Assembly: GCA_024278975.1 (NCBI GenBank)
Contig: JAJRSD010000009.1
Span: 1-48,178, forward strand
Reading direction: 5' to 3'
Source: Bacteroidota bacterium
GTDB lineage: Bacteria; Bacteroidota; Bacteroidia; Bacteroidales; Prolixibacteraceae
DNA: 48,178 nucleotides
The first letter of the stretch is position 1. The number at the start of each line of letters is the position of its first letter. Shown here piece after piece: positions 1 to 47,458 of the stretch. Made by a program: the position numbers and the translations under genes. Under the pieces are notes generated by a model. It searched no databases. It had not been told where the DNA came from and worked only from the letters and a program-made list of their open reading frames with translations.

Positions 1-364
1 TATTCAATTTTATGGAAATTATATAAAAACATATAAAGACGGCAAATATGGTTTATACTCAAAAACCGGAAATGTTATACTTAAAAATGAATTTGTAAAT
101 ATTCAATTTTATGGAAATTATATAAAAACATATAAAGACGGTAAATATGGCTTATACTCAAAAACCGGAAATGTTATACTTAAAAATGAATATGATAATA
201 TTTCACAAACGGGTTCCTATTTCAAAACAGTAAAAAATGGTAAAACAGGTTTGGCTGATTCCCGTGGAAATATTGTTATTCCAAACGAATACGACAAACT
301 GGAAGTGAATGGTAAGAAAGTTCGTTTGGTTAAAAATGGTATAAAGAAAACAATTACACTATAA
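1..364 (+). CDS. WG-repeat protein, C-terminal part (5' end outside window)
   Basis: An open frame runs from the left edge (first full codon at base 2) to a TAA at 362-364, giving about 120 residues with no start in view. The product is built of short repeats of the type YxKTYKDGKYGLYSKTGNVI followed by a divergent unit containing GKTGLADSRGNIVIPNEYD. This is the pattern of WG/KWG repeat proteins (beta-rich repeats with G-L-x-D/N-x-x-G-x-x-I-x-P cores). Such proteins are often exported in Bacteroidota, but no biochemical role can be assigned. The gene ends just before a good terminator at 399-437, so it is transcriptionally separate from the polysaccharide cluster that follows. The repeat-family call is firm; the function is unknown. 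Confidence 0.75.
   Translation, partial: IQFYGNYIKTYKDGKYGLYSKTGNVILKNEFVNIQFYGNYIKTYKDGKYGLYSKTGNVILKNEYDNISQTGSYFKTVKNGKTGLADSRGNIVIPNEYDKLEVNGKKVRLVKNGIKKTITL
2..199 (+). repeat. Two tandem 99-bp in-frame repeats
   Basis: Units 2-100 and 101-199 are nearly identical for their first ~90 bases (two synonymous third-position changes, ggc/ggt) and diverge in the last codons. Each encodes 33 residues of the WG-repeat protein. The near identity at DNA level indicates a recent in-frame duplication; more copies may lie to the left of the window. Confidence 0.85.
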
Positions 365-36692: not shown

Positions 36693-36830
36693 GTATTTTG
36701 ATGGTAATTGTTTTAAAATGTGTGAAACTCTTTTAAAATTGAGTTCTTTTTATAATAGTGTCAAATCTAAAACTACACAAACTCATTCACCGCTGCCAAA
36801 CTTTATACTAAAAGAGATGACACTTTTGAT

Positions 36831-37955
36831 TTATAGAATAAACCCCTCATAATTTTCAGGATTAATTACCTGATATTCATTTTCAGGATATGCTTTTAAG
36901 AAAGTTTTTGAAATTTTGGGCTTTTTCTTCATACTCCATTTTATTTCAAAAGCATACAAAATACCCTCTCTCTCTTCAATATAATCTATTTCCTGTTGTG
37001 CGTGTGTACGCCAGAAATAACAATTTGCCCATATATTATTATAACTCAAATACTTTCTTCTTTCACTAATAATATAGTTTTCCCATAGAGCTCCGGTATC
37101 CTGACGCAATGCCAGCGAATTAAAATTGGCAATCAGCGAGTTACGGATTCCATTGTCATAAAAATATATTTTTCGTGACTTTTTAAGTTCTGTTCTAATA
37201 TTTCGATTAAACGACTGAAGCCTAAAAATTATATATGCCTTCTCCAGCAGGTCAACATATCTTTCAACAGTTTGATTATCAATACCAATTATCTGCCCTA
37301 TTTCGTTATACGAAACCTCGTTGCCCAGTTGAAGTGCAAGTGCCTGTAACAATTTTACAATAACAGAAGATTTTTTCAGTTTTTCGAAATTTAACAAATC
37401 CTTGTAAAGATACGCATCAGACAGACGTTTAAGCACACTCTTTTCGTCACCCGGATTAGTTATAACTTCAGGATATGAACCGTATATCATTCGATATTCC
37501 AGAAGACGTTTCTCCTCTATAAGATTGGTATGATTTACCATCTCGGCAAACGATAAAGGGAATAGAAATATTTCTATTTTGCGTCCGGTTAAAGGCTCAT
37601 TAATTTTATCTGAAAGCTCGAAAGCCGATGAACCGGTAACCAGAACTTTAAGGTTAGGAATATTATCAATAATTATTTTTAATGTTAATCCTATGTTTGT
37701 AATACGTTGTGCTTCATCTATTATAAGCAACTCGTAGTTTCCAAACAATAGGCGAAGTCTGGTTGATGTTGCATTTTCAAAAATAGCCGCTGTATCTGCA
37801 TCATCACCATTAAGCCAAAAAGTTTTAAGACCAGACTCATTCCCTATTTTTTGAGCCAGCACTGTTTTCCCAACCTGACGCGGTCCGGGAATATGAACTA
37901 TCTTTTTTTTATTGAGGCTTTGGATTATTTCCTTTTCACATGCTCTTAAAATCAT
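36831..37955 (-). CDS. AAA_14/DUF4143 ATPase with PD-(D/E)XK-like C-terminus (copy 1)
   Basis: The 374-residue protein has an N-terminal P-loop ATPase domain: Walker A GPRQVGKT (24-31), Walker B LLIIDEAQ (Asp80-Glu81) and a VTGSSAFEL sensor segment (106-114). A winged-helix segment follows (about 214-245). The C-terminal DUF4143 domain contains WENYIISE (291-298), QQEIDYIEE (Asp324) and FEIKW (Glu337-x-Lys339), which fits a PD-(D/E)XK nuclease fold. The biological role of this very abundant family is not established. It is a single-gene unit with a tandem palindrome array starting four bases before its ATG and covering both promoter elements, so autoregulation is likely. A paralogue with a different array is at 46121-47269. 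No toxin or antitoxin partner is adjacent. Confidence 0.88.
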   Translation of the reverse strand: MILRACEKEIIQSLNKKKIVHIPGPRQVGKTVLAQKIGNESGLKTFWLNGDDADTAAIFENATSTRLRLLFGNYELLIIDEAQRITNIGLTLKIIIDNIPNLKVLVTGSSAFELSDKINEPLTGRKIEIFLFPLSFAEMVNHTNLIEEKRLLEYRMIYGSYPEVITNPGDEKSVLKRLSDAYLYKDLLNFEKLKKSSVIVKLLQALALQLGNEVSYNEIGQIIGIDNQTVERYVDLLEKAYIIFRLQSFNRNIRTELKKSRKIYFYDNGIRNSLIANFNSLALRQDTGALWENYIISERRKYLSYNNIWANCYFWRTHAQQEIDYIEEREGILYAFEIKWSMKKKPKISKTFLKAYPENEYQVINPENYEGFIL

Positions 37956-37959
37956 AACA

Positions 37960-38023
37960 TTTACGTTTACAAACGCAAATATAATACTAATTTTGCGTTT
38001 ACAAACGCAAATATTATAAAAAT
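37960..38023 (-). promoter_or_regulatory. Tandem palindrome array 1 (2 x 32 bp) over the ATPase promoter
   Basis: Two 32-bp units (37960-37991, 37992-38023) match at 28 of 32 positions. Each carries a 20-bp palindrome; on the minus strand the distal copy is TTTGCGTTTGTAAACGCAAA (9-bp arms, perfect) and the proximal copy has one change. The -7 element TATATTTG (37983-37976) overlaps the proximal palindrome and a -33 TTTG (38005-38002) lies inside the distal one. The proximal palindrome ends four bases from the ATG. Confidence 0.8.
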
Positions 38024-38058
38024 TCTAACATTGTACCTTGCAAATAATTTCTTTATCT

Positions 38059-40149
38059 CTACTTCAAATACCTATCTAACCAATCGAAGAAAACCCGTTG
38101 CCAAAGAATTCCGTTTTGAGGTTGTAAAACCCAATGATTTTCTTCGGGAAAATATAACATTTGAGCCGGTACACCACGTAAAACAGCCGCATTAAAAGCT
38201 GCCATCCCCTGCTCTTCCGGAACACGAAAATCTTTTCCACCCTGAATAATTAAAATTGGTGTATCCCAATTCTGTATAAACTTATGAGGCGAAAATGTGT
38301 ACGAACGCTGTGCTGCAGCATTTGTTTTATCCCAGTATGCACCGCCATAATCGAAATTTACAAACCACATTTCCTCGGTAGCGGAGTACATATCTTCGAA
38401 ATTAAAAATACCGTCGTGTGCAATAAAAGCCTTGAAACGTTTCTCGTGATTTCCTGCAAGATACATAACCGAAAAACCGCCATAACTTGCTCCAACCGCA
38501 CCCAGTTTTGTTTCATCAACAAAAGGTTCTTTTGCCATTTCGTCGATGGCGGTGAGTAAATCTTTTATGTTCTGCCCGCCATAATCTTTCGATATTTGCT
38601 CGTTCCATTTTTGACCAAAACCGGGTAGTCCACGACGATTTGGTGCAACAATAATATAACCGTTTGCAGCCATCATTTGAAAATTCCAGCGATACGACCA
38701 AAACTGGCTAACAGTTCCCTGCGGGCCACCCTGATTGTAAAGTAGTGTTGGATACTTTTTGTTGGGGTCGAAATGTGGTGGATAAATTACCCAGACTGCC
38801 ATCTGTTTTCCGTCGGTTGTTTCTATCCATCGTTTTTCAACTTTTCCCATTGAAAGCTGATCGAGAATACCTTTATTAACGGCTGTCAGCGGAGTTTCAT
38901 TTCCGGTAATCTGGTCAACTAAATATAGCTCGGCAGGTTGCGACATAGAAACTCTTTGTGCCAATAACTTATCTCCAACTGGCACCGCACTTTGATAATT
39001 ATGAACTCCGTCGGTTAATCTCACAATTGAAGCATCTGCTAGATCAACCCTGTAAATTTCGTCGGTAGCATGAATATCGCTGATAAAATAGATTGATTTT
39101 CCATCGGCACTCCAATTTAAACCTTGTACATTTTGGTCGAATTTTGCCGAATAATCTCTCTTTTCTCCGGTTTCCAAATCAGCTACAAACAATCGGTTTT
39201 TATCAGCTTCGTAACCGTCGCGTTCCATACTTTCCCACGCGAGATATTTCCCATCGGGCGAGAAAACAGGGTTCTGGTCGTAACCCATCATCCCCGATGT
39301 AAAATTAATGGTTTTACCGGTTTCGATATTATACAGATAAATCTCAGAATTTGTTGAGACAGAATACTCTCTGCCAACTTTCTTTTTACAAGTGTAGGCA
39401 ATTGTTTTTCCATCGGGACTCCATACAATTTGTTCTGTTCCGCCAAAAGGTTTCATTGGCGAATCAAACTTTTCACCTTCCATAATATCTTTTCCCTCTC
39501 CCACTTTTCCTTTAGAATAATCGGCTATAAAAATATGATTGTAAGTATAATCGTGCCACGCATCCCAATGTCGATACATCAAATCGGTCTCTAAACGTGC
39601 ATTTGTTTTTGGTAAATCGGGAAACAAATCATGAACATCATCATCTAATTTTACACTTTTCAGATAAAATATTTTTGATTGGTCGGGCGAATACTTAAAT
39701 CCTGAAATTCCACCTTTAATTTCCGAAACCTGTTTTGTTTTACTTCCGTCAGGATTCATTTCCCAAAGTTGTACACTACCGGATACTCCTGATAAATAAC
39801 CAATCTTTTTTCCGTCGGGACGCCAGATTGCGCCAAACTCTTTTGTGGCAGAATTGGTAATATTTGTTGCTTCGCCACCCGAAACAGGAATAGTATAAAT
39901 ATCGCGATACGATTTATTCTCCTCAATATTATAGTAGGTAACTCCGTATAAAACAGTCTCTCCATTGGGCGAAACCTCTGCTCCACCCAGTCTGCCAAAC
40001 GACCAAAGAACTTCGGGTGTCATAATGTCGGAACTTAATTCGGGTATTTCGGGAACGTAATTTTTTGTTGAGGTTGAAGTGGCAGTCTCTTTTTGTGTAC
40101 AACTAAATACAACAAATAGTGTAATAAAACTCAATGCTAATTTTTTCAT
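38059..40149 (-). CDS. S9-family prolyl oligopeptidase-like peptidase, lipoprotein
   Basis: The 696-residue lipoprotein (MKKLALSFITLFVVFSC, Cys17) has an N-terminal WD40-like/TolB-like propeller (about 45-420, repeated SPDGK and WRPDGK turns). The C-terminal peptidase S9 domain has nucleophile Ser555 in GASYGG, Asp640 in IQGGKD and His672 in ENHWVLQ. It is of the acylaminoacyl-peptidase/dipeptidyl-peptidase type and should trim peptides in the periplasm. A -33/-7 pair (TTTG, 20 bases, TATTTTG) lies 28-58 bases upstream. It is a single-gene unit between the ATPase array and a repeat-bearing gap. Confidence 0.93.
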   Translation of the reverse strand: MKKLALSFITLFVVFSCTQKETATSTSTKNYVPEIPELSSDIMTPEVLWSFGRLGGAEVSPNGETVLYGVTYYNIEENKSYRDIYTIPVSGGEATNITNSATKEFGAIWRPDGKKIGYLSGVSGSVQLWEMNPDGSKTKQVSEIKGGISGFKYSPDQSKIFYLKSVKLDDDVHDLFPDLPKTNARLETDLMYRHWDAWHDYTYNHIFIADYSKGKVGEGKDIMEGEKFDSPMKPFGGTEQIVWSPDGKTIAYTCKKKVGREYSVSTNSEIYLYNIETGKTINFTSGMMGYDQNPVFSPDGKYLAWESMERDGYEADKNRLFVADLETGEKRDYSAKFDQNVQGLNWSADGKSIYFISDIHATDEIYRVDLADASIVRLTDGVHNYQSAVPVGDKLLAQRVSMSQPAELYLVDQITGNETPLTAVNKGILDQLSMGKVEKRWIETTDGKQMAVWVIYPPHFDPNKKYPTLLYNQGGPQGTVSQFWSYRWNFQMMAANGYIIVAPNRRGLPGFGQKWNEQISKDYGGQNIKDLLTAIDEMAKEPFVDETKLGAVGASYGGFSVMYLAGNHEKRFKAFIAHDGIFNFEDMYSATEEMWFVNFDYGGAYWDKTNAAAQRSYTFSPHKFIQNWDTPILIIQGGKDFRVPEEQGMAAFNAAVLRGVPAQMLYFPEENHWVLQPQNGILWQRVFFDWLDRYLK

Positions 40150-40176
40150 CTTGATTTCGGTTTAATGAATATTCCT

Positions 40177-40207
40177 CAAAATAAATAAAATACCGGGAGA
40201 CGGCAAA
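40177..40207 (-). promoter_or_regulatory. Promoter of the S9 peptidase gene
   Basis: On the minus strand TTTG (40207-40204) and TATTTTG (40183-40177) are 20 bases apart, close to the Bacteroidota -33/-7 pattern; the predicted start is about 20 bases before the ATG. Confidence 0.45.
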
Positions 40208-40273
40208 TGATAATTACTTGGGTTTTAACAAATAGTTGTAAGAGAAAAAAGTAAATAGTCATACCCTGACGGG

Positions 40274-40315
40274 AAGTCAGAGCATGACTTTGTGAGAGGT
40301 AAGTCAGAGCATGAC
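40274..40315. repeat. Direct repeat AAGTCAGAGCATGAC, 27-bp period
   Basis: Exact 15-base copies at 40274-40288 and 40301-40315. Each contains the short inverted repeat GTCA/TGAC. They lie between the S9 promoter and the nigD-like terminator. Confidence 0.7.
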
Positions 40316-40330
40316 CAAAAAAATCATAAT

Positions 40331-40360
40331 AAAAAAAGGCATCCTTTCGGACACCTTTTT
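40331..40360 (-). terminator. Terminator of the NigD-like gene
   Basis: The arms AAAAAGG..TCC (40333-40344) and GGA..CCTTTTT (40349-40360) pair with a two-base internal mismatch. On the minus strand the stem runs into a T-run, 24 bases after the nigD-like stop. Confidence 0.7.
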
Positions 40361-40383
40361 AAAATTTACCAAAACACTAACAA

Positions 40384-41112
40384 TTAATTGTTTTCTGACG
40401 GTCTTATAACATCCGGCAAATCACTATAATTAAAAACTCCCTCTTCCGAAAATTCAACTCCATCGTAATCGGTTGCCGTTACAACAAAGCTAACTGAATC
40501 TACACCTTCAATTCGCAAACTGTTTAAACTAAATGATACGTATGCAGTGTAATAAACTGCATCGTCGTCGTCGTTTGCATTATGCCGTAATTCCAACTCA
40601 AATGGTTGAATTCCGGGTGCCATTAACATCGAAGGTTTTTTTACAAGATTCAAAAAATGGATACCATTGTAACCCCAGTATTTTAATTTAAAACTCAGCA
40701 AACTGTCAGTCATCCAATAATCTTCAACAACAATCGGGTCATTTCCAATGCTGTCTTCATTTTCCGGAGTTATCTCCATAATACCCTTCATTAAAATATC
40801 TTCTATTGAATTTACTTTTACTGAATAACTTTCAATATTACCATCATCATCCAAATTATCACCTAAAATTGTGTAGTTTACCAATACACGTTCTCCATTA
40901 TCATATCTTTCGCCCCACCCCGGAGGATAATTTGATGCAATAAGAATCAATACATCTTTATTATCCATTACAATTTTATAATTGTCTGCCTCATCAGATT
41001 GAAAGATTCCAAAGCCAATCCACATATCACTTAACGAGTAACCGTCATCGTCGTTACATCCACTCAACACGAACATAATTCCCACTAAAAGTCCAAAAAT
41101 AATTTTCTTCAT
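40384..41112 (-). CDS. NigD-like lipoprotein
   Basis: The 242-residue lipoprotein (MKKIIFGLLVGIMFVLSGC) shows the NigD-like pattern. An acidic start after the lipidated Cys (NDDDGYSLSDMWIGFGIFQS) is followed by an OB-fold-like domain with VLVNYTILGD and VKVNSIEDIL, and a C-terminal beta-sandwich (PFELELRHNANDDDDAVYYTAYVSFSLNSLR). NigD was first noted in a Bacteroides bacteriocin operon, but most homologues are surface lipoproteins of unknown function, and no bacteriocin gene is present. The ATG at 41112 is used rather than the TTG one codon upstream. It is divergent from the glutaredoxin operon and followed by a terminator. Confidence 0.8.
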   Translation of the reverse strand: MKKIIFGLLVGIMFVLSGCNDDDGYSLSDMWIGFGIFQSDEADNYKIVMDNKDVLILIASNYPPGWGERYDNGERVLVNYTILGDNLDDDGNIESYSVKVNSIEDILMKGIMEITPENEDSIGNDPIVVEDYWMTDSLLSFKLKYWGYNGIHFLNLVKKPSMLMAPGIQPFELELRHNANDDDDAVYYTAYVSFSLNSLRIEGVDSVSFVVTATDYDGVEFSEEGVFNYSDLPDVIRPSENN

Positions 41113-41205
41113 CAATATATTTTTTAATGTTTATATAAGTCAGATGCATTAAGTTTCGAAATGGTTGCGTCCGTATTAAAAAAAACTGACATTTATTCAA
41201 AACTG

Positions 41206-41238
41206 CATGACAAATTCTGTCATGGCATAACAATTGCT
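41206..41238 (+). promoter_or_regulatory. Sigma-54-type promoter with adjacent palindrome
   Basis: TGGCAT (41223-41228), five bases, then TTGCT (41234-41238) reproduces the -24/-12 consensus spacing of RpoN promoters. Immediately upstream, and overlapping by two bases, is a perfect palindrome CATGACA-AATTC-TGTCATG (41206-41224). The predicted start is near 41249, 30 bases before the ATG at 41279. Confidence 0.6.
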
Positions 41239-41278
41239 ATGCACATTCACATATTTAATTATTTACATATTTAATAGA

Positions 41279-41857
41279 ATGAAAGGAATTTCGAATATAA
41301 ACGACTTACAAATAGAATTTGAAGCAAACGAAAAAGTTTGGTTGCTGTTATACAAAAAAGGTTCGGAACAGAGCGATTGTGCTTATAAAAATTTTGTTGA
41401 AGCAGAGGACAAAACGAAAAACCAAATTCTTTTAAATGCTGATGTAAATATTGTTCGGGACATTCATACAAAGTATAAAATTACAAGTGTTCCGACATTG
41501 CTTAGTTTTGAAAAAAGTGAACTTAAGAATATTGTAAAGGGGTGCTACCAACCGGAACAATTTAATGCTATTTTTGAGAAATCAGGTTTTGTTGCCACAA
41601 ATTTGGGTGAAAAGAAAACACAAAAAAGTGTTACGGTTTATTCAACTCCAACATGTTCGTGGTGTACTGTTATAAAAAGACATTTACAGGAAAATGGTAT
41701 TCGTTATCGCGAAGTTGATGTTTCGGCAGACCAAAAAGCAGCCGAAGAGATGGTTCGGAAAAGTGGACAACAAGGTGTTCCGCAAACCGATATAAACGGG
41801 CAAATTGTGGTAGGTTTCGACAAAATAAGAATAAACTCATTACTGGGAATTAATTAA
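41279..41857 (+). CDS. Degenerate thioredoxin domain fused to glutaredoxin
   Basis: The 192-residue cytoplasmic protein has an N-terminal thioredoxin-like domain (about 1-95). In it the CxxC site is replaced by SEQSDCA (only Cys34 remains), while the cis-Pro loop SVPT (70-73) is kept. The C-terminal glutaredoxin domain (about 117-192) has TPTCSWC (Cys126/Cys129) and GVPQTDINGQIVVGFD. The glutaredoxin half should catalyse dithiol exchange; the first half may bind a partner. The ATG at 41279 is chosen because the upstream TTG (41234) falls inside the promoter's -12 element. It is first of a three-gene plus-strand unit with an exported thioredoxin and a GroES-like protein, under a sigma-54-type promoter. 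Confidence 0.85.
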   Translation: MKGISNINDLQIEFEANEKVWLLLYKKGSEQSDCAYKNFVEAEDKTKNQILLNADVNIVRDIHTKYKITSVPTLLSFEKSELKNIVKGCYQPEQFNAIFEKSGFVATNLGEKKTQKSVTVYSTPTCSWCTVIKRHLQENGIRYREVDVSADQKAAEEMVRKSGQQGVPQTDINGQIVVGFDKIRINSLLGIN

Positions 41858-41869
41858 AATAAAAATAAA

Positions 41870-42373
41870 ATGAAAAAATTAGTATTTATCCTGATTGCAG
41901 TTTTTACGTTGCAAGCAAGCATTACAAGTCAGGCAAAAAATAATGACAATAAAAACAGAACAACTCTGGCAGAAACTAAATTTGCTAATGGAGACGGAGA
42001 AACGGTAAAACTCAATAAAGAGAAGTTTCTAAATGAAGTATGGGATTACGAAGCATCGCCAAAAGAGTGGAAATACAAAGGCGACAAACCGGCAATGATT
42101 GATTTTTATGCCGACTGGTGTGGCCCTTGCAAAACAGCAGCTCCAATTTTAGAGGAGTTATCGGTTGAATATTCAGGAAAAATAGTGATTTATAAAATTG
42201 ACACACAAGTTGAACGTGAATTGGCAAGTGTATTTGGAGTTAGTGGAATTCCTGCTTTCCTTTATATTCCTATGGAAGGAAAACCTTCGATGACATCGGG
42301 AATTGCCCGCTCAAAAGCCGATACTAAAAAAATGTTTAAAGAGAGAATTGACAAATTATTGACAAATAATTAA
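41870..42373 (+). CDS. Exported thioredoxin-family protein
   Basis: The 167-residue protein has a signal peptide (MKKLVFILIAVFTLQASITSQA) and a thioredoxin domain with FYADWCGPCKTAAPILEEL and the cis-Pro loop GVSGIPAFLYIP. The active-site sequence is the classical WCGPC, so it is a periplasmic thiol-disulfide oxidoreductase, likely reducing or shuffling disulfides. It follows the glutaredoxin fusion by 12 bases and precedes the GroES-like gene by 27 bases, in one operon. The extra N-terminal segment (about 23-62) before the thioredoxin fold is a common feature of exported Bacteroidota thioredoxins. Confidence 0.92.
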   Translation: MKKLVFILIAVFTLQASITSQAKNNDNKNRTTLAETKFANGDGETVKLNKEKFLNEVWDYEASPKEWKYKGDKPAMIDFYADWCGPCKTAAPILEELSVEYSGKIVIYKIDTQVERELASVFGVSGIPAFLYIPMEGKPSMTSGIARSKADTKKMFKERIDKLLTNN

Positions 42374-42400
42374 TTACAAATTTTAAATAAAATATTAAAA

Positions 42401-42688
42401 ATGAAGGAATTACAGCCTATTAATCAGAATGTACTGTTGGAGATTTCGGAAGATAAATCGGAACAAACTACTGCTTCAGGAATTATTATACCTGAGTCGG
42501 CAAAAGAGAAACAAGAAGTTGCAAAAGTAATTGCGGTAAGTAATATCGAAGATGCAGAGATTGTACCCGGAGACGAGGTTCTCTACAAACAATACGCAGG
42601 AACTGAGATTGACTTTAATGACAAAAAATATTTGTTATTACCTTATGCAGAGATTTTATCGAAAATCGTGGTAACAGAGTCAATCTAA
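42401..42688 (+). CDS. groES: GroES-like co-chaperonin without a GroEL neighbour
   Basis: The 95-residue protein is a Cpn10. It has PINQNVLLEISEDKSEQTTASGIIIPESAKEKQ with the mobile-loop segment SGIII, VAKVIAVSNIEDAEIVPGDEVLYKQYAGTEI, and YLLLPYAEILSKI. It would cap GroEL or a related chaperonin. It has no adjacent groEL and lies behind two thiol-redox genes, so it is likely a paralogue of the housekeeping groES induced with them. The sequence is somewhat diverged from the usual Bacteroidota form (VLYKQYAGTEI in place of the common V-L-x-x-K-Y-x-G-T-E). A strong terminator follows. Confidence 0.85.
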   Translation: MKELQPINQNVLLEISEDKSEQTTASGIIIPESAKEKQEVAKVIAVSNIEDAEIVPGDEVLYKQYAGTEIDFNDKKYLLLPYAEILSKIVVTESI

Positions 42689-42706
42689 AAAGAGATTTTT
42701 TCTGAG

Positions 42707-42745
42707 AAAAAAGGCTGGAAGTTTTATTACTTCCAGCCTTTTTTT
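42707..42745 (+). terminator. Terminator of the Grx-Trx-GroES operon
   Basis: AAGGCTGGAAG (42711-42721) pairs perfectly with CTTCCAGCCTT (42730-42740) and continues as A-run/T-run on both sides; it can also serve the opposite strand. Confidence 0.92.
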
Positions 42746-42814
42746 AGAACGAAATATCGTATTGTAACCTAAACCATACTTTATTCACAAAAATAAAAAA
42801 GAAGAAGATTAAAG

Positions 42815-44317
42815 TCAGAGCTTTCGAAATTTAGTTTCGTTTAAAAATTCAATTGTTTTATTAATGCCTTCGTACATTAAAACATCGCGCTCAACAAAAG
42901 CAACTTTTTCGCGATACTCTTTTAAAAAGTTTTCTAAAAAAGGTGAGGTTTTTACAGGTCTTCTAAAATCCATTGCCTGCGCAGCATTGTATAATTCAAT
43001 TGCTAAAATTTTCTCGGTATTCAGCACAACTTTCAGTGCTTTAGTTGCACCGTTTCCGCCCATGCTAACGTGGTCTTCCTGCTCGTTCGACGATGGAATT
43101 GAATCGACAGACGATGGAGTTGCAAGCTGTTTATTCTGACTAACAATAGAAGCTGCCGCATATTGAGGAATCATAAATCCGGAATTTAAACCAGGTTTGG
43201 CAACCAAAAACTCGGGCAATTTTCGTTCGCCCGCAATTAACCGATAAGTGCGGCGCTCTGAAATACTTCCCAACTCACTCATTGCAATTGCCAAAAAATC
43301 GAGCGAAAGAGCCAGCGGTTCGCCATGGAAATTACCTCCCGAAATAATCTGATCGTCATCAGGAAAAACAGTTGGATTGTCGGTAACAGAATTTATCTCT
43401 ATTTCAATTACACCGGCAACATAATTTACAGCATCCTTAACTGCACCATGCACCTGCGGAATACAACGGAAAGAATATGGATCCTGAATATGCTCTTTTT
43501 GTCGTATAATAAGTTCGCTTCCATTCAGAATGTTCCTGAAATTGGAAGCCGTTGTTCCTTGTCCGGTATGTGGTCTTATGCGTTGTATGTTTTCAGAGAA
43601 AGGTTCAATCAGTCCATCAAAAGCATCAAGAGAAAGTGCACCAATAATATCTCCCTGATCGATAAGACGGAAGGTTTTGAGCAATGTATAAACTCCGTGT
43701 GCACTCATAAACTGAGTACCGTTCAACAAAGCGAGTCCCTCTTTAGCTTCGAGTTTAACACGCTCCCACCCCAGTTTTTCCAGAACTATTTTCGACTCTG
43801 TTTTTACTCCTTCAAAATAGACTTCTCCCAAACCGATTAGAGGCAGAAAAAGCATGGCAAGCGGAGCTAAATCGCCACTGGCACCCAACGAACCTTGTTC
43901 GTAAACAAGAGGTAAAATATCATAATTAAAGAGGTCGATAATTCGCTGAACAGTTGCTATTTGCACTGCTGAATTTCCTTTTGAAAGTGCATGTGCTTTT
44001 AACAGCAACATCAGTTTAACAACATCAGAAGGAATTTCGGAACCAATATTACATGCATGAGAAATAACCAAATTCTCCTGTAATTTGCTAAGTTCGTCTT
44101 TCGAAATCTCGATATCGCAAAGTGCTCCAAAACCGGTGTTTATTCCATAAATTGGCTTTTCCGATTCGCGTAATTTTTTATCGAGATAGTCTTTACTTTT
44201 TTGAATGAGTTGTTTTGATTTTTCTGAAAGTTCGAGTTTAACATCATTTTCCAGAATATCCTGAATAATTTCAAATGTCAGGTTGTCGGGGGTTATTTGG
44301 TGAATCCTTGTTTTCAT
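42815..44317 (-). CDS. hutH: Histidine ammonia-lyase
   Basis: HutH removes ammonia from L-histidine to give urocanate, using the self-formed MIO cofactor. The 500-residue protein has the MIO triad Ala146-Ser147-Gly148 in GSLGASGDLAPLA, the YGINTGFGAL tyrosine loop (57-66), SHACN (86-90; His87 in the position that selects histidine or tyrosine rather than phenylalanine), QEDHVSMGGNGATK and NSVTDNPTVF. Length matches HAL. The rest of the histidine-utilisation pathway (hutU, hutI, hutG/ftcD) is not next to it. Its leader contains the 15-mer shared with ompH. A tyrosine lyase activity is less likely but not excluded. Confidence 0.9.
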   Translation of the reverse strand: MKTRIHQITPDNLTFEIIQDILENDVKLELSEKSKQLIQKSKDYLDKKLRESEKPIYGINTGFGALCDIEISKDELSKLQENLVISHACNIGSEIPSDVVKLMLLLKAHALSKGNSAVQIATVQRIIDLFNYDILPLVYEQGSLGASGDLAPLAMLFLPLIGLGEVYFEGVKTESKIVLEKLGWERVKLEAKEGLALLNGTQFMSAHGVYTLLKTFRLIDQGDIIGALSLDAFDGLIEPFSENIQRIRPHTGQGTTASNFRNILNGSELIIRQKEHIQDPYSFRCIPQVHGAVKDAVNYVAGVIEIEINSVTDNPTVFPDDDQIISGGNFHGEPLALSLDFLAIAMSELGSISERRTYRLIAGERKLPEFLVAKPGLNSGFMIPQYAAASIVSQNKQLATPSSVDSIPSSNEQEDHVSMGGNGATKALKVVLNTEKILAIELYNAAQAMDFRRPVKTSPFLENFLKEYREKVAFVERDVLMYEGINKTIEFLNETKFRKL

Positions 44318-44395
44318 ATGTTTATAATTATTTATTTTTTAACGGCAACATATGTATCTCGCTTATAATCAGCCACCTGTATGCCAAATCTTGCC

Positions 44396-44410
44396 ATGCT
44401 CGTTTCATGA
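44396..44410 (-). promoter_or_regulatory. Shared 15-mer upstream of hutH (same as 25183-25197)
   Basis: The minus-strand word TCATGAAACGAGCAT is 79 bases from the hutH ATG, the same distance as its twin before ompH. Here it is followed by GGCAAG rather than by the TCCGT/ACGGA hairpin. Confidence 0.45.
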
Positions 44411-44444
44411 TTTAAAAAAAATTAAATTGATAAAATGTTTTGAA

Positions 44445-44487
44445 CGTCATGCTGTCCATGGGACTCCTATGGAGAATTCATCTCAGC
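44445..44487 (+). repeat. REP-like dispersed element, copy 2 (unit A)
   Basis: This 43-bp block starts CGTCATGCTGTCCATG and ends TCATCTCAGC. It is a gapless match to the minus strand of 13670-13712. Removing the central 20 bases leaves the simple hairpin CGTCATGCTGAA...TCAGCA. Confidence 0.75.
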
Positions 44488-44497
44488 ATCTCAATAA

Positions 44498-44527
44498 ACA
44501 GATTCCGAAATGAATTCGGAATGACGT
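44498..44527 (-). repeat. REP-like hairpin, unit B
   Basis: ATTCCGAA (44502-44509) and TTCGGAAT (44515-44522) form a perfect 8-bp stem, flanked by GACG. It is the same family as 13740-13768, with both sides of the stem changed together. Confidence 0.7.
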
Positions 44528-44649
44528 AGTAAATAATTTACCAGGCAATCACGGAAACCGAACGTCGCCGCCAAGGGATTTTAAAGGACGATTTGAAATT
44601 GATAAAAACATTATCTCAATTTTTTGGCAATTTCGGATAAGTAAAATGT

Positions 44650-46011
44650 TTAAGAAAGGATTTTTATCAGTTCTTTAGAAGTAACCAATTGTTGTTCGCC
44701 GCTATCCATATTTTTTAATGTGAATTTATTGGCTTCAATCTCTGAATCGCCGGCTAAAATCACAAACGGAATTTCTTTACGGTTGGCATAATTCATCTGC
44801 TTTTTCATTTTCGAGCTCCCGGGAAATATCTCTGCATTTACACCATTTTTTCGCAATTCGGCCAAAACAGGCAAACAGTAAACTTCTTCTTTTTCGCCAA
44901 AATTAACAAACATTACTTTTGTAATTTCCAACGACTCTTTTGGAAACGAATCTTGCTGAACAAGTACATCGTAAATACGTTCGGCACCAAACGAAACTCC
45001 AACTCCCGACACATTTGGCATTCCGAAAATCCCGGTTAAATCATCGTATCGTCCACCACCACAAATACTTCCAATCTGTATGTCTTTCGATTTTACTTCG
45101 AAAATTGCACCGGTGTAATAATTCAGTCCGCGTGCCAGTGTTAAGTCAAGTTCAACTTCGGTTTCTAATTCGAAATTATCGAGATATTCGAACAAGGTTT
45201 TCATTTCTGAAATACCTTTTGCGCCAACTTCTGTTGCGCCAATAACTTTTTCTATCTGGGTTAATTTTTCAGAAGTTGTTCCCTGTAACTCTAAAATAGG
45301 CTGTAGCTTTTCAACGGCAGTTGCCGAAATACCTTTTGCAATCATTTCAGCATTTACCTTTTCCAAACCAATTTTATCCAGTTTATCGATGGCAACAGTA
45401 ATATCAATTATCCGGTCGGCTTCGCCAATAGTTTCTGCTATTCCGGCTAAAATTTTACGGTTGTTAATTTTAACCAATGTATTAATTTGCAGCCGTTTAA
45501 ATACATCGTCGATAATCTGCACTAACTCCGCTTCGTTCAATAAACTGTTGCTTCCAATTACATCAACATCGCACTGATAAAATTCGCGGTAACGTCCTTT
45601 CTGAGGTCGGTCGGCACGCCAAACAGGTTGAATTTGGTAACGTTTAAAAGGGAAAGTAATATCGTTTCTGTTTTGTACAACGTAACGTGCAAACGGTACA
45701 GTCAAGTCGTATCGTAATCCTTTTTCCGAAATTTTTGTGGTGAGTTTATTTGAGTTTTTTTCGTTATACAAATCCTCCGAAACTTTAGAAACAAAATCAC
45801 CTGAATTCAGAATTTTGAATAATAATTTATCACCTTCCTCTCCATATTTCCCCATCAGAGTCGAAAGGTTTTCCATTGCCGGTGTTTCAATGGGTTGAAA
45901 TCCATATAATCGGAATACATCTTTAATAGTATCGAAAATATAGTTTCTCCTCACCATTTGAGATGGTGAAAAATCGCGGGTTCCTTTCGGTATGGATGGT
46001 TTTTGTGCCAT
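44650..46011 (-). CDS. hisS: Histidyl-tRNA synthetase
   Basis: This class II aminoacyl-tRNA synthetase charges tRNA-His. The 453-residue protein has [10 protein letters not shown] (7-16), motif 2 in [15 protein letters not shown], the His-specific [15 protein letters not shown] and [12 protein letters not shown], motif 3 in [11 protein letters not shown], and a C-terminal anticodon-binding domain (about 360-453). All expected blocks are present and the length is normal. It is a single-gene unit with a TATTTTTG -7 element 23-30 bases before the ATG. It lies next to hutH, but the two genes have different jobs (charging versus breakdown) and a repeat-filled gap between them. Confidence 0.97.
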
Positions 46012-46033
46012 TACTTAATTTTTTATCAGGCTG

Positions 46034-46041
46034 CAAAAATA
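46034..46041 (-). promoter_or_regulatory. -7 element of hisS
   Basis: TATTTTTG on the minus strand fits TAnnTTTG; transcription should start about 16 bases before the hisS ATG. No clear -33 element. Confidence 0.4.
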
Positions 46042-46120
46042 TAAATTATAAATGAGTTCGCAGCATATAAAATCATAGCAAAACAAAGCAGTTACTGTTT
46101 TATATTTTCAATTCATTTTG

Positions 46121-47269
46121 TTAAGTAATAAAATCAAGATAGTTATCAGTATTAACAACATTAAATTCAGCATCAGGATAACTGTTCTTCCATCCTCCCG
46201 GCACTCGTCCTTTTTTTCTGGAATTCCATTTGAATTCGTATCCACGTAGGATGCCTGCCTCTTCTTCTACCAGATCTAACTCCTGTTGATCGTAGGTGCG
46301 CCAAAAGTAGTAGTTAACCCTTTTATTATTGTAGGCATTGTATTTTATCCGTTCTGCCATGAGATAGTTTTCCCACAGTTCCCCTTTATCCATTCTAAAG
46401 TTTAGGTGATTGAAATTTCTGATAACTGCATTCCGAATTCCATTATCGTAAAAGTACCACCGGTTCATTTTAGTTACCTCTTTACGTAGGTTTCGGTTGA
46501 AGCCACTAACTTTGTATATGATAAAAACTTTCGACAGTAAATCCAGGTAATTTTCAATTGTATTCCTCGAAATTCCTTTCAGACTGCTTGCCAATTCGTC
46601 AACATTGACTTCTTTACCCACCTGAAATGCAATAAGCCTTAACAAATCCATAATTTTGTCGGCCTTTTTAATCCCTCCATATTCAAGTATATCCCGAAGC
46701 AAATAAGAGTTTACTATTCCTTCTAAATAACTGGCTTTTTCATTCCAGTCAATGAATTGCTCTAATTCGGGGTAGCTACCAAATATTAAACGTTCTTCCA
46801 ATTTTCCAACAGTATCAAAATAATTCTCATGCGGAGAAAACTCAAGCTGAGCCAATGGAAATAATCGTATAGTATTTTCTCTCCCTACAAGCGGCTCCCC
46901 CAATTTATTGGTTAAATCGAATACGGATGAACCAGTTACAATTACACGAATCCCCTCAATCCCGTCCACTATCAATTTTAATTTCTGTCCAATATCCGGT
47001 ATCTTTTGTGCTTCATCGATTACCAATAATTTTTGATTGCCCAGAATCTTCCTGTAATTATCTGATGAGCGGTTATGAAGGGCATCTAACGTTTTTTGAT
47101 CTTCTCCATTCAATAACAGGTACTCATTTGAAGAATAATTTTCCAAATACTTTTTTATAAATTCAGTTTTCCCAACCCTTCTTGCACCTAACAGAATAAG
47201 TACTTTTTGAGGTCGCACCTTTTGCCTAAATTCATCTAAAATTGCTCTTTTAAAAAATCTAACTTTCAT
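46121..47269 (-). CDS. AAA_14/DUF4143 ATPase with PD-(D/E)XK-like C-terminus (copy 2)
   Basis: The 382-residue protein is a paralogue of the ATPase at 36831-37955. It has Walker A GARRVGKT (28-35), Walker B LLVIDEAQ (Asp85-Glu86), VTGSSVFDL (111-119), a winged-helix segment (about 224-252), and a DUF4143 domain with LWENYLMAE (298-306), QQELDLVEE (Asp332) and YEFKW (Glu345-x-Lys347). The ATG at 47269 replaces a TTG-initiated extension at 47293, since the family normally begins close to this point. It is a single-gene unit. Three tandem 32-bp units with the palindrome CAATTAACGTTAATTG begin about 55 bases upstream, a different sequence from the array of copy 1 but with the same period. Function unknown; the palindromes are likely its own or a dedicated regulator's binding sites. 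Confidence 0.87.
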   Translation of the reverse strand: MKVRFFKRAILDEFRQKVRPQKVLILLGARRVGKTEFIKKYLENYSSNEYLLLNGEDQKTLDALHNRSSDNYRKILGNQKLLVIDEAQKIPDIGQKLKLIVDGIEGIRVIVTGSSVFDLTNKLGEPLVGRENTIRLFPLAQLEFSPHENYFDTVGKLEERLIFGSYPELEQFIDWNEKASYLEGIVNSYLLRDILEYGGIKKADKIMDLLRLIAFQVGKEVNVDELASSLKGISRNTIENYLDLLSKVFIIYKVSGFNRNLRKEVTKMNRWYFYDNGIRNAVIRNFNHLNFRMDKGELWENYLMAERIKYNAYNNKRVNYYFWRTYDQQELDLVEEEAGILRGYEFKWNSRKKGRVPGGWKNSYPDAEFNVVNTDNYLDFIT

Positions 47270-47322
47270 TCTTTTGTATTGTTTCAACTGCAATTTATAT
47301 AAAATATTTCAATTACAATAAC

Positions 47323-47418
47323 TATTTTACGTTAATTGCTTCAGTACAATCATTCAATTAACGTTAATTGCTTCAGTTTGTTCAAACAATTAACGTTAAT
47401 TGCTTCAGTTAGATATAT
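47323..47418 (-). promoter_or_regulatory. Tandem palindrome array 2 (3 x 32 bp) upstream of ATPase copy 2
   Basis: Units 47323-47354, 47355-47386 and 47387-47418 share ACGTTAATTGCTTCAGT exactly. The two distal units contain the perfect 16-bp palindrome CAATTAACGTTAATTG and are identical for 24 bases. The unit nearest the gene keeps only one half of the palindrome. Period exactly 32 bp, as in array 1. Confidence 0.85.
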
Positions 47419-47458
47419 GAAAAGGGTTAAAAGAGAAGGAATCTGTTTCTACACAAAA

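Follow-up and report, generated by a model that had tools for sequence, protein, structure and literature searches.

Two ATPase genes in a 48,178-nucleotide (nt) stretch of a Bacteroidota genome of the Prolixibacteraceae (contig JAJRSD010000009.1, positions 1 to 48,178; here the window) each lie directly downstream of a tandem array of short sites. Their products fall into PDC-S01, a very common, uncharacterised family of bacterial and archaeal ATPase-nucleases in which a small upstream site array is often present. Comparison of arrays and proteins across the family suggests that each ATPase-nuclease probably recognises the helically phased array next to its gene and regulates its own transcription, shielded from its paralogues. 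The features of both loci are collected in Table 1.

Both the AAA_14 and DUF4143 Pfam domains were above cut-off in each window ATPase, and the two proteins share 44% identity. The PDLC04789 profile matched ATPase-1 (E 1.4e-162, profile 1-373 of 375) and ATPase-2 (E 4.4e-152, profile 2-373 of 375) and by this match places both in the PADLOC candidate family PDC-S01. For ATPase-2, the first TTG gives an open reading frame (ORF) of 46121-47293, with the ATG at 47269 as the better start. Alignments confirmed the first-pass annotation in that the Walker motifs (Walker A and DEAQ) and the D...ExK motif are kept in both proteins. Among 70 sequences D332 was invariant, with E345 and K347 conserved in at least 90%, and the structure model of ATPase-2 places the D...ExK residues on core strands 330-337 and 340-346, as in a predicted PD-(D/E)XK-like nuclease domain. 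A PDB sequence search with ATPase-2 gave nothing better than E 0.68 and thus no solved relative by sequence. In a fold search the best match was SSO1545 (PDB 2fna; E 5.1e-10, TMq 0.50, 18% identity), and the neighbours included Orc1/Cdc6 on origin DNA (2qby), the STAND/NLR ATPases Avs3, Sr35 and RPP1, and MuB and TnsC filaments. The window ATPases are modelled as an AAA+ ATPase whose fold resembles Orc/Cdc6 and STAND proteins, followed by a winged helix and the PD-(D/E)XK-like domain.

Table 1. Positions of the genes, arrays, protein segments and inserted units in window coordinates.
Feature	Position	Strand	Description and basis
ATPase-1	36831..37955	-	AAA_14 + DUF4143 (PDC-S01), 374 amino acids (aa); profile match PDLC04789
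ATPase-1 recognition-helix tetrapeptide DNQT (residues 226-229)	37269..37280	-	alignments
Array 1	37960..38023	-	two 32-nt units, 37960-37991 and 37992-38023, dyads TTTACGTTTACAAACGCAAA and TTTGCGTTTACAAACGCAAA
TAnnTTTG box inside array 1, TATATTTG	37976..37983	-	position read from sequence
Inserted unit 1, gene + array	36701..38057 (approximate edges)		not present in congeners, flanks 79-121 nt apart
ATPase-2	46121..47269	-	AAA_14 + DUF4143 (PDC-S01), 382 aa counted from ATG 47269
ATPase-2 PD-(D/E)XK-like active-site segment, E330, D332 ... E345-x-K347	46229..46282	-	alignments, conservation, structure model
ATPase-2 winged helix-turn-helix (residues 203-256)	46502..46663	-	secondary structure of predicted model
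ATPase-2 recognition-helix tetrapeptide SRNT (residues 234-237)	46559..46570	-	best of 288 windows; helix 235-247 in structure model
Array 2	47326..47421	-	three 32-nt units, 47326-47357, 47358-47389 and 47390-47421; CAATTAACGTTAATTG plus CTTCAG/CTGAA
Inserted unit 2, ATPase-2 gene + array	46049..47452 (1,404 nt)		26 nt in congeners L459 and L460

The tandem 32-base-pair (bp) palindromes that had been reported upstream of both genes withstood testing. Array 1 reached a repeat score (S) of 23.0 against a shuffle mean of 8.1 and array 2 an S of 35.5 against 8.2, each above all 200 dinucleotide shuffles. The unit word of array 1 is TTTGCGTTTacAAACGCAAA, the gene-proximal copy differing by one change, and in array 2 CAATTAACGTTAATTG is complete in two units and partial in the third; the palindromes of the two arrays are unrelated in sequence. 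Both sites are close to private in the 4.65-Mb genome at up to 2 mismatches, as TTTGCGTTTNNAAACGCAAA was found at array 1 only and CAATTAACGTTAATTG at array 2 plus one 2-mismatch place on a different contig.

The genome holds 47 DUF4143 matches, fragments among them, and with ATPase-2 as query 44 matches were obtained compared to 1-12 in 12 same-genus genomes. The PDC-S01 paralogues of this genome are a large lineage-specific expansion, and the distribution of the family was patchy among the genomes compared. Among 39 intact DUF4143 genes of the genome (at least 350 aa, at least 150 nt upstream), 21 carried an array at S>=14, with sequences differing and with periods of 32 (ten arrays), 33 (five), 22 (two) and 21, 59, 62 and 64 (once each). 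Control ORFs in the same loci reached this threshold in 7/66 cases, five of which were judged by their position to belong to the family or to show a family array from its divergent side, leaving two unexplained. Upstream repeats were also seen at the own-genome ORFs L034 +351 (448 aa; period 22, S 28) and L042 -3907 (698 aa; period 34, S 14).

A sample of 342 distinct genes (217 + 47 + 78) was then scored at S>=13, with fragments, duplicates and genes with too short an upstream region excluded. A strong upstream tandem repeat was present in 168 of them, with a period of 32 in 111, 33 in 23, 22 in 6 and 23 in 4, the others being scattered. Taken together, 134/168 arrays had a period of 32 or 33 and 10/168 of 22 or 23, and the periods of this large sample are thus not spread over unrelated values, which the first-pass annotation had named as fatal to its proposal. 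In a neighbour-gene control (80 named loci, 211 genes) S>=13 was reached by 14 genes, two of them with period 32/33, compared to 43/73 family genes of the same loci, where the best period at any score was 32/33 in 50/73. In the subclades, whose gene sets overlap, arrays were found at 13/31 genes of PDLC04786, 8 of them at 32/33, and at 12/29 genes of PDLC04787 with mixed periods. The common geometry that had been proposed for the two window genes therefore recurs across the family, but it is not universal, with periods of 33 and 22/23 occurring by clade. Periods of 32/33 correspond to about three helical turns and 22/23 to about two, so that the sites would face one side of the DNA.

Arrays consisted mostly of 2 (88 arrays) or 3 units (33 arrays), with a maximum of 6. 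Palindromic units (P<=0.05) made up 39/59 at period 32 and 4/20 at period 33, and array units come in two modes, symmetric and head-to-tail. The palindromic character noted at first thus holds at both window genes but not for period 33, whose units are mostly non-palindromic. The period-33 arrays L020, L023, L025, L036, L038, L196, L198 and L203 are direct repeats with no significant dyads, and ATTGCC or CCTTG occurs in several of them; their proteins form a long clade (about 430-460 aa), and the arrays perhaps represent a head-to-tail mode of binding. In the related, 70% identical genes L010 and L061 the array words agree, with period 32 in the former and 33 in the latter, so that within a clade the spacing can differ by a single base. 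An array with S 48 was found at L188, on a contig titled Helarchaeota, although metagenome-bin titles can be wrong. In a different family, PDC-S27, an ATPase-nuclease of the same genome (L303, C68) is preceded by a repeat of period 53 (S 20.5), and L288 by one of period 52 (S 12.5); 52/53 is close to five helical turns.

Array sequence co-varied with the protein, with common words at 43-55% protein identity. We scanned 288 four-residue windows over 131 arrays (training and hold-outs; 7,437 pairs at 36-60% identity), and the window 234-237, at the start of the winged-helix recognition helix, ranked first by both mean difference and effect. The tetrapeptide class DNQT/DNET, for example, was associated with GCG words. 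In a first hold-out of 47 new genes with 30 arrays, 16/18 rule-bearing arrays matched their word compared to 0.7 expected from other classes, with the words for DKET, DNQT, DNET, DSKT and GKGT (half of the words) written after viewing the set; in the clean part, SKNT matched in 2/2, NKIT in 1/1 and DKNT in 5/6. A second hold-out of 78 further genes with 37 arrays, for which the rules were fixed beforehand, gave 11/11 matches with 0.9 expected. Where the nearest earlier protein was below 60% identity, 5/6 arrays matched in the first hold-out and 4/4 in the second. On these comparisons, array words appear predictable from four helix residues for several protein types. The suggested covariation of array and winged-helix region was therefore found, and located by the tetrapeptide scan and hold-outs at the start of the recognition helix; the claim that each protein has its own site is borne out by the near-private window sites and by words that track this helix. 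The winged helix very probably binds the array beside its own gene.

Several observations weigh against this reading. A strong array was not present in 174/342 genes at S>=13, in all but 4/30 genes of PDLC04790 (three of the four at 22/23), or in five of six plasmid homologues tested, and the loci, from many taxa, were best matches to a few queries, making the sample uneven. The scan data include the genes from which the code was first noticed, pairs and related genes in the covariation tests are not independent, and the winged helix did not stand out when whole-domain identity or individual residues were tested. The loop 324-327 (46289-46300 in ATPase-2), just before E330/D332, ranked second by effect, and the nuclease domain may also touch the array, or the signal may reflect clade structure. 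Rule-bearing arrays made up 29/67 of the hold-out arrays, the other 38/67 having tetrapeptides that lack a rule; the code missed at L135, L320 and L349, and TTCA/TGAA was also present in 4/19 SKNT arrays. Finally, no exact TAnnTTTG was read between array 2 and its gene.

TAnnTTTG is the -7-type promoter box of Bacteroidota. It was found within or just after the array in 88/128 arrays, compared to 14 for the reversed pattern and 21 for the opposite strand, and by this consensus the arrays overlap or abut the promoters of their own genes. Like an operator, the site would lie at its gene's own promoter, as judged by promoter consensus, and would be read by the product of the same gene, as the covariation and hold-outs suggest. 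The outcome of binding is probably autoregulation, with repression moderately favoured over activation. Positive autoregulation appears rather unlikely; here the array would act as an upstream activating sequence, recruiting polymerase after the ATPase has been switched on, and the product would induce its gene instead of repressing it. STAND regulators such as MalT do activate transcription, which counts for it. MalT is named in PMC5760070. The 56/115 boxes at or after the array's downstream end, with a peak at 0-8 nt, would also fit an activator; the remaining 59/115, however, start before that end, as does the box of window array 1, which favours occlusion over activation.

At both window loci gene and array were inserted as one 1.3-1.4-kb unit. 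The flanks of ATPase-1 lie 79-121 nt apart in 5/11 congener loci (L443-L447) compared to about 1,365 nt here, the other six having different or missing neighbours on that side. Those of ATPase-2 are 26-254 nt apart in 7/11 congener loci (L458-L460, L462-L464, L466), with 530-769 nt between them in three others and no right flank in one; in L459 and L460 collinearity with the window runs to 46048 and resumes at 47453. The 22 flank loci (1.5 kb each side or to the contig end) showed no PDC-S01 gene, and together with the empty sites this identifies gene plus array as the inserted unit.

This arrangement bears on the proposal that the array is the target of the nuclease or a memory of invaders, that is, a defence array, as the first-pass annotation had suggested. 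PADLOC does list the family as a candidate, and the D...ExK site is conserved. The arrays, however, lie at promoters, share one inserted unit with the gene and carry words that track the protein's own helix, so this proposal is not supported and we consider it very unlikely. In a viral collection, which may not cover the phages of this host, site 1 matched once, with no family gene detected in that stretch, and a longer form of site 2 had no match.

The unit could also be self-mobilising, the array being an end recognised for transposition and the ATPase a TnsC- or MuB-like protein. Patchy distribution, empty sites, identical copies in four genera and the fold similarity to MuB and TnsC filaments speak for this, yet in both window units the array stands on one side of the gene only, and a comparison of the two edges of unit 2 (about 45-50 nt each) gave no common repeat of at least 7 nt, direct or inverted; the reading is highly improbable. 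Neither terminal inverted repeats nor a target-site duplication were seen at these edges. The transfer among four genera concerns a block of more than 4 kb, identical in loci titled Phocaeicola, Prevotella, Leyella and Parabacteroides, in which a period-33 relative sits. Homologues were present in 541/72,556 plasmid records and 19/50,697 phage records. In L148 (Phocaeicola coprocola) a stretch of about 1.6 kb (about 1153-2748) directly upstream of the PDC-S01 gene is not in the otherwise identical DNA of the other genera, has a 5-nt overlap at its edges and is possibly an insertion sequence. L153, on a metagenome contig titled Sporosarcina, matches L148 with values equal to those of Bacteroides xylanisolvens L190 and is thus probably a mis-binned contig.

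Archaeal Orc1/Cdc6 proteins combine an AAA+ domain with a winged helix and, to our knowledge, have few paralogues and no nuclease domain. As in PDC-S01, there are several paralogues, each associated with sequences next to its gene; in Haloarcula hispanica, cdc6 genes are required by the individual origins with which they are co-located (PMC3936714). With Orc1/Cdc6 on origin DNA among the fold neighbours of ATPase-2, the protein might be an initiator and the array a counterpart of origin recognition boxes. This is extremely improbable given 47 DUF4143 matches in a single genome and arrays that are short, at promoters and, at both window loci, inside inserted units of 1.3-1.4 kb; the Orc1/Cdc6 sites are replication origins, whereas the PDC-S01 arrays are putative promoter operators. 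ATPase-2 was not placed in Orc1/Cdc6 by sequence, its best PDB sequence match being no better than E 0.68. That the arrays arise as an artefact of AT-rich promoters, or are non-coding DNA passed on with no function, as AT-rich upstream regions and the half of genes with no strong array might suggest, is contradicted by the dinucleotide shuffles, the neighbour genes, the words shared at 43-55% identity and the predictive code, and is practically discounted.

In the self-binding, autoregulatory reading, the minimal unit would consist of one ATPase-nuclease and, in cis at its promoter, an array of cognate sites, mostly 2-3 and at most 6 in number. One dimer would occupy each palindromic 32-bp unit, with head-to-tail protomers on 33-bp direct repeats, and dimers would line up next to one another along the array, with ATP as a probable modulator. 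The assembled protein would control, and most likely repress, its own gene's transcription and so hold a predicted, potentially harmful PD-(D/E)XK nuclease at a low level, and diverging helix and site would insulate dozens of paralogues in one cell. The orthogonal regulator envisaged at first is retained to the extent that near-private sites and helix-linked words suggest it. The nuclease target is perhaps anti-phage; the PADLOC candidate label is the basis on which a defence role may perhaps be considered. It is also conceivable, though unlikely, that the array acts as a DNA leash, with the self-repressing ATPase-nuclease kept inactive on its private array at the promoter, in a helically phased multimer, until loss, occupation or degradation of the array (e.g., by phage takeover or breakdown of host DNA) frees active multimers and triggers a burst of synthesis. 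If true, this would be a 'DNA antitoxin' or guard system made of a single gene, whose dozens of copies the helix code would keep orthogonal.

Autoregulated helix-turn-helix repressors with tandem operators likewise have private sites at their own promoters and helical phasing. Unlike these, the regulator in PDC-S01 would be an ATPase-nuclease, and one geometry persists across taxa as the sites change in sequence along with the helix. STAND/NLR ATPases share the arrangement of nucleotide-binding domain and winged helix, but in the window ATPases the winged helix itself seems to read DNA. SSO1545, an archaeal AAA+ ATPase, is the best structural match yet only 18% identical. PMC12988326 describes PDC-S01 as the fusion of an ATPase domain with the PD-(D/E)XK superfamily, and both window proteins are of this kind, matching PDLC04789 over almost their full length. 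The main text of that paper, searched by term, mentions no tandem repeats, palindromes, autoregulation, promoter or winged helix, 'upstream' occurring once in an unrelated sense; array and helix code are the addition made here. No description of private helically phased arrays or of a helix code was found in the parts consulted of the open-licence literature (PMC12988326 and PMC13356809 included, bioRxiv outside its scope). Of the candidate undescribed system proposed by the first-pass annotation, the family was thus already known as a candidate, and the arrays and recognition code were what was not found in print.

The diverging helices and sites suggest how about forty paralogues can coexist in one genome without cross-talk. 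If the code holds, the DNA target of many PDC-S01 proteins would be readable from four residues, and binding, autoregulation and inducer searches would become directly testable. The arrays and their proteins would then offer a natural set of orthogonal operator-regulator pairs.
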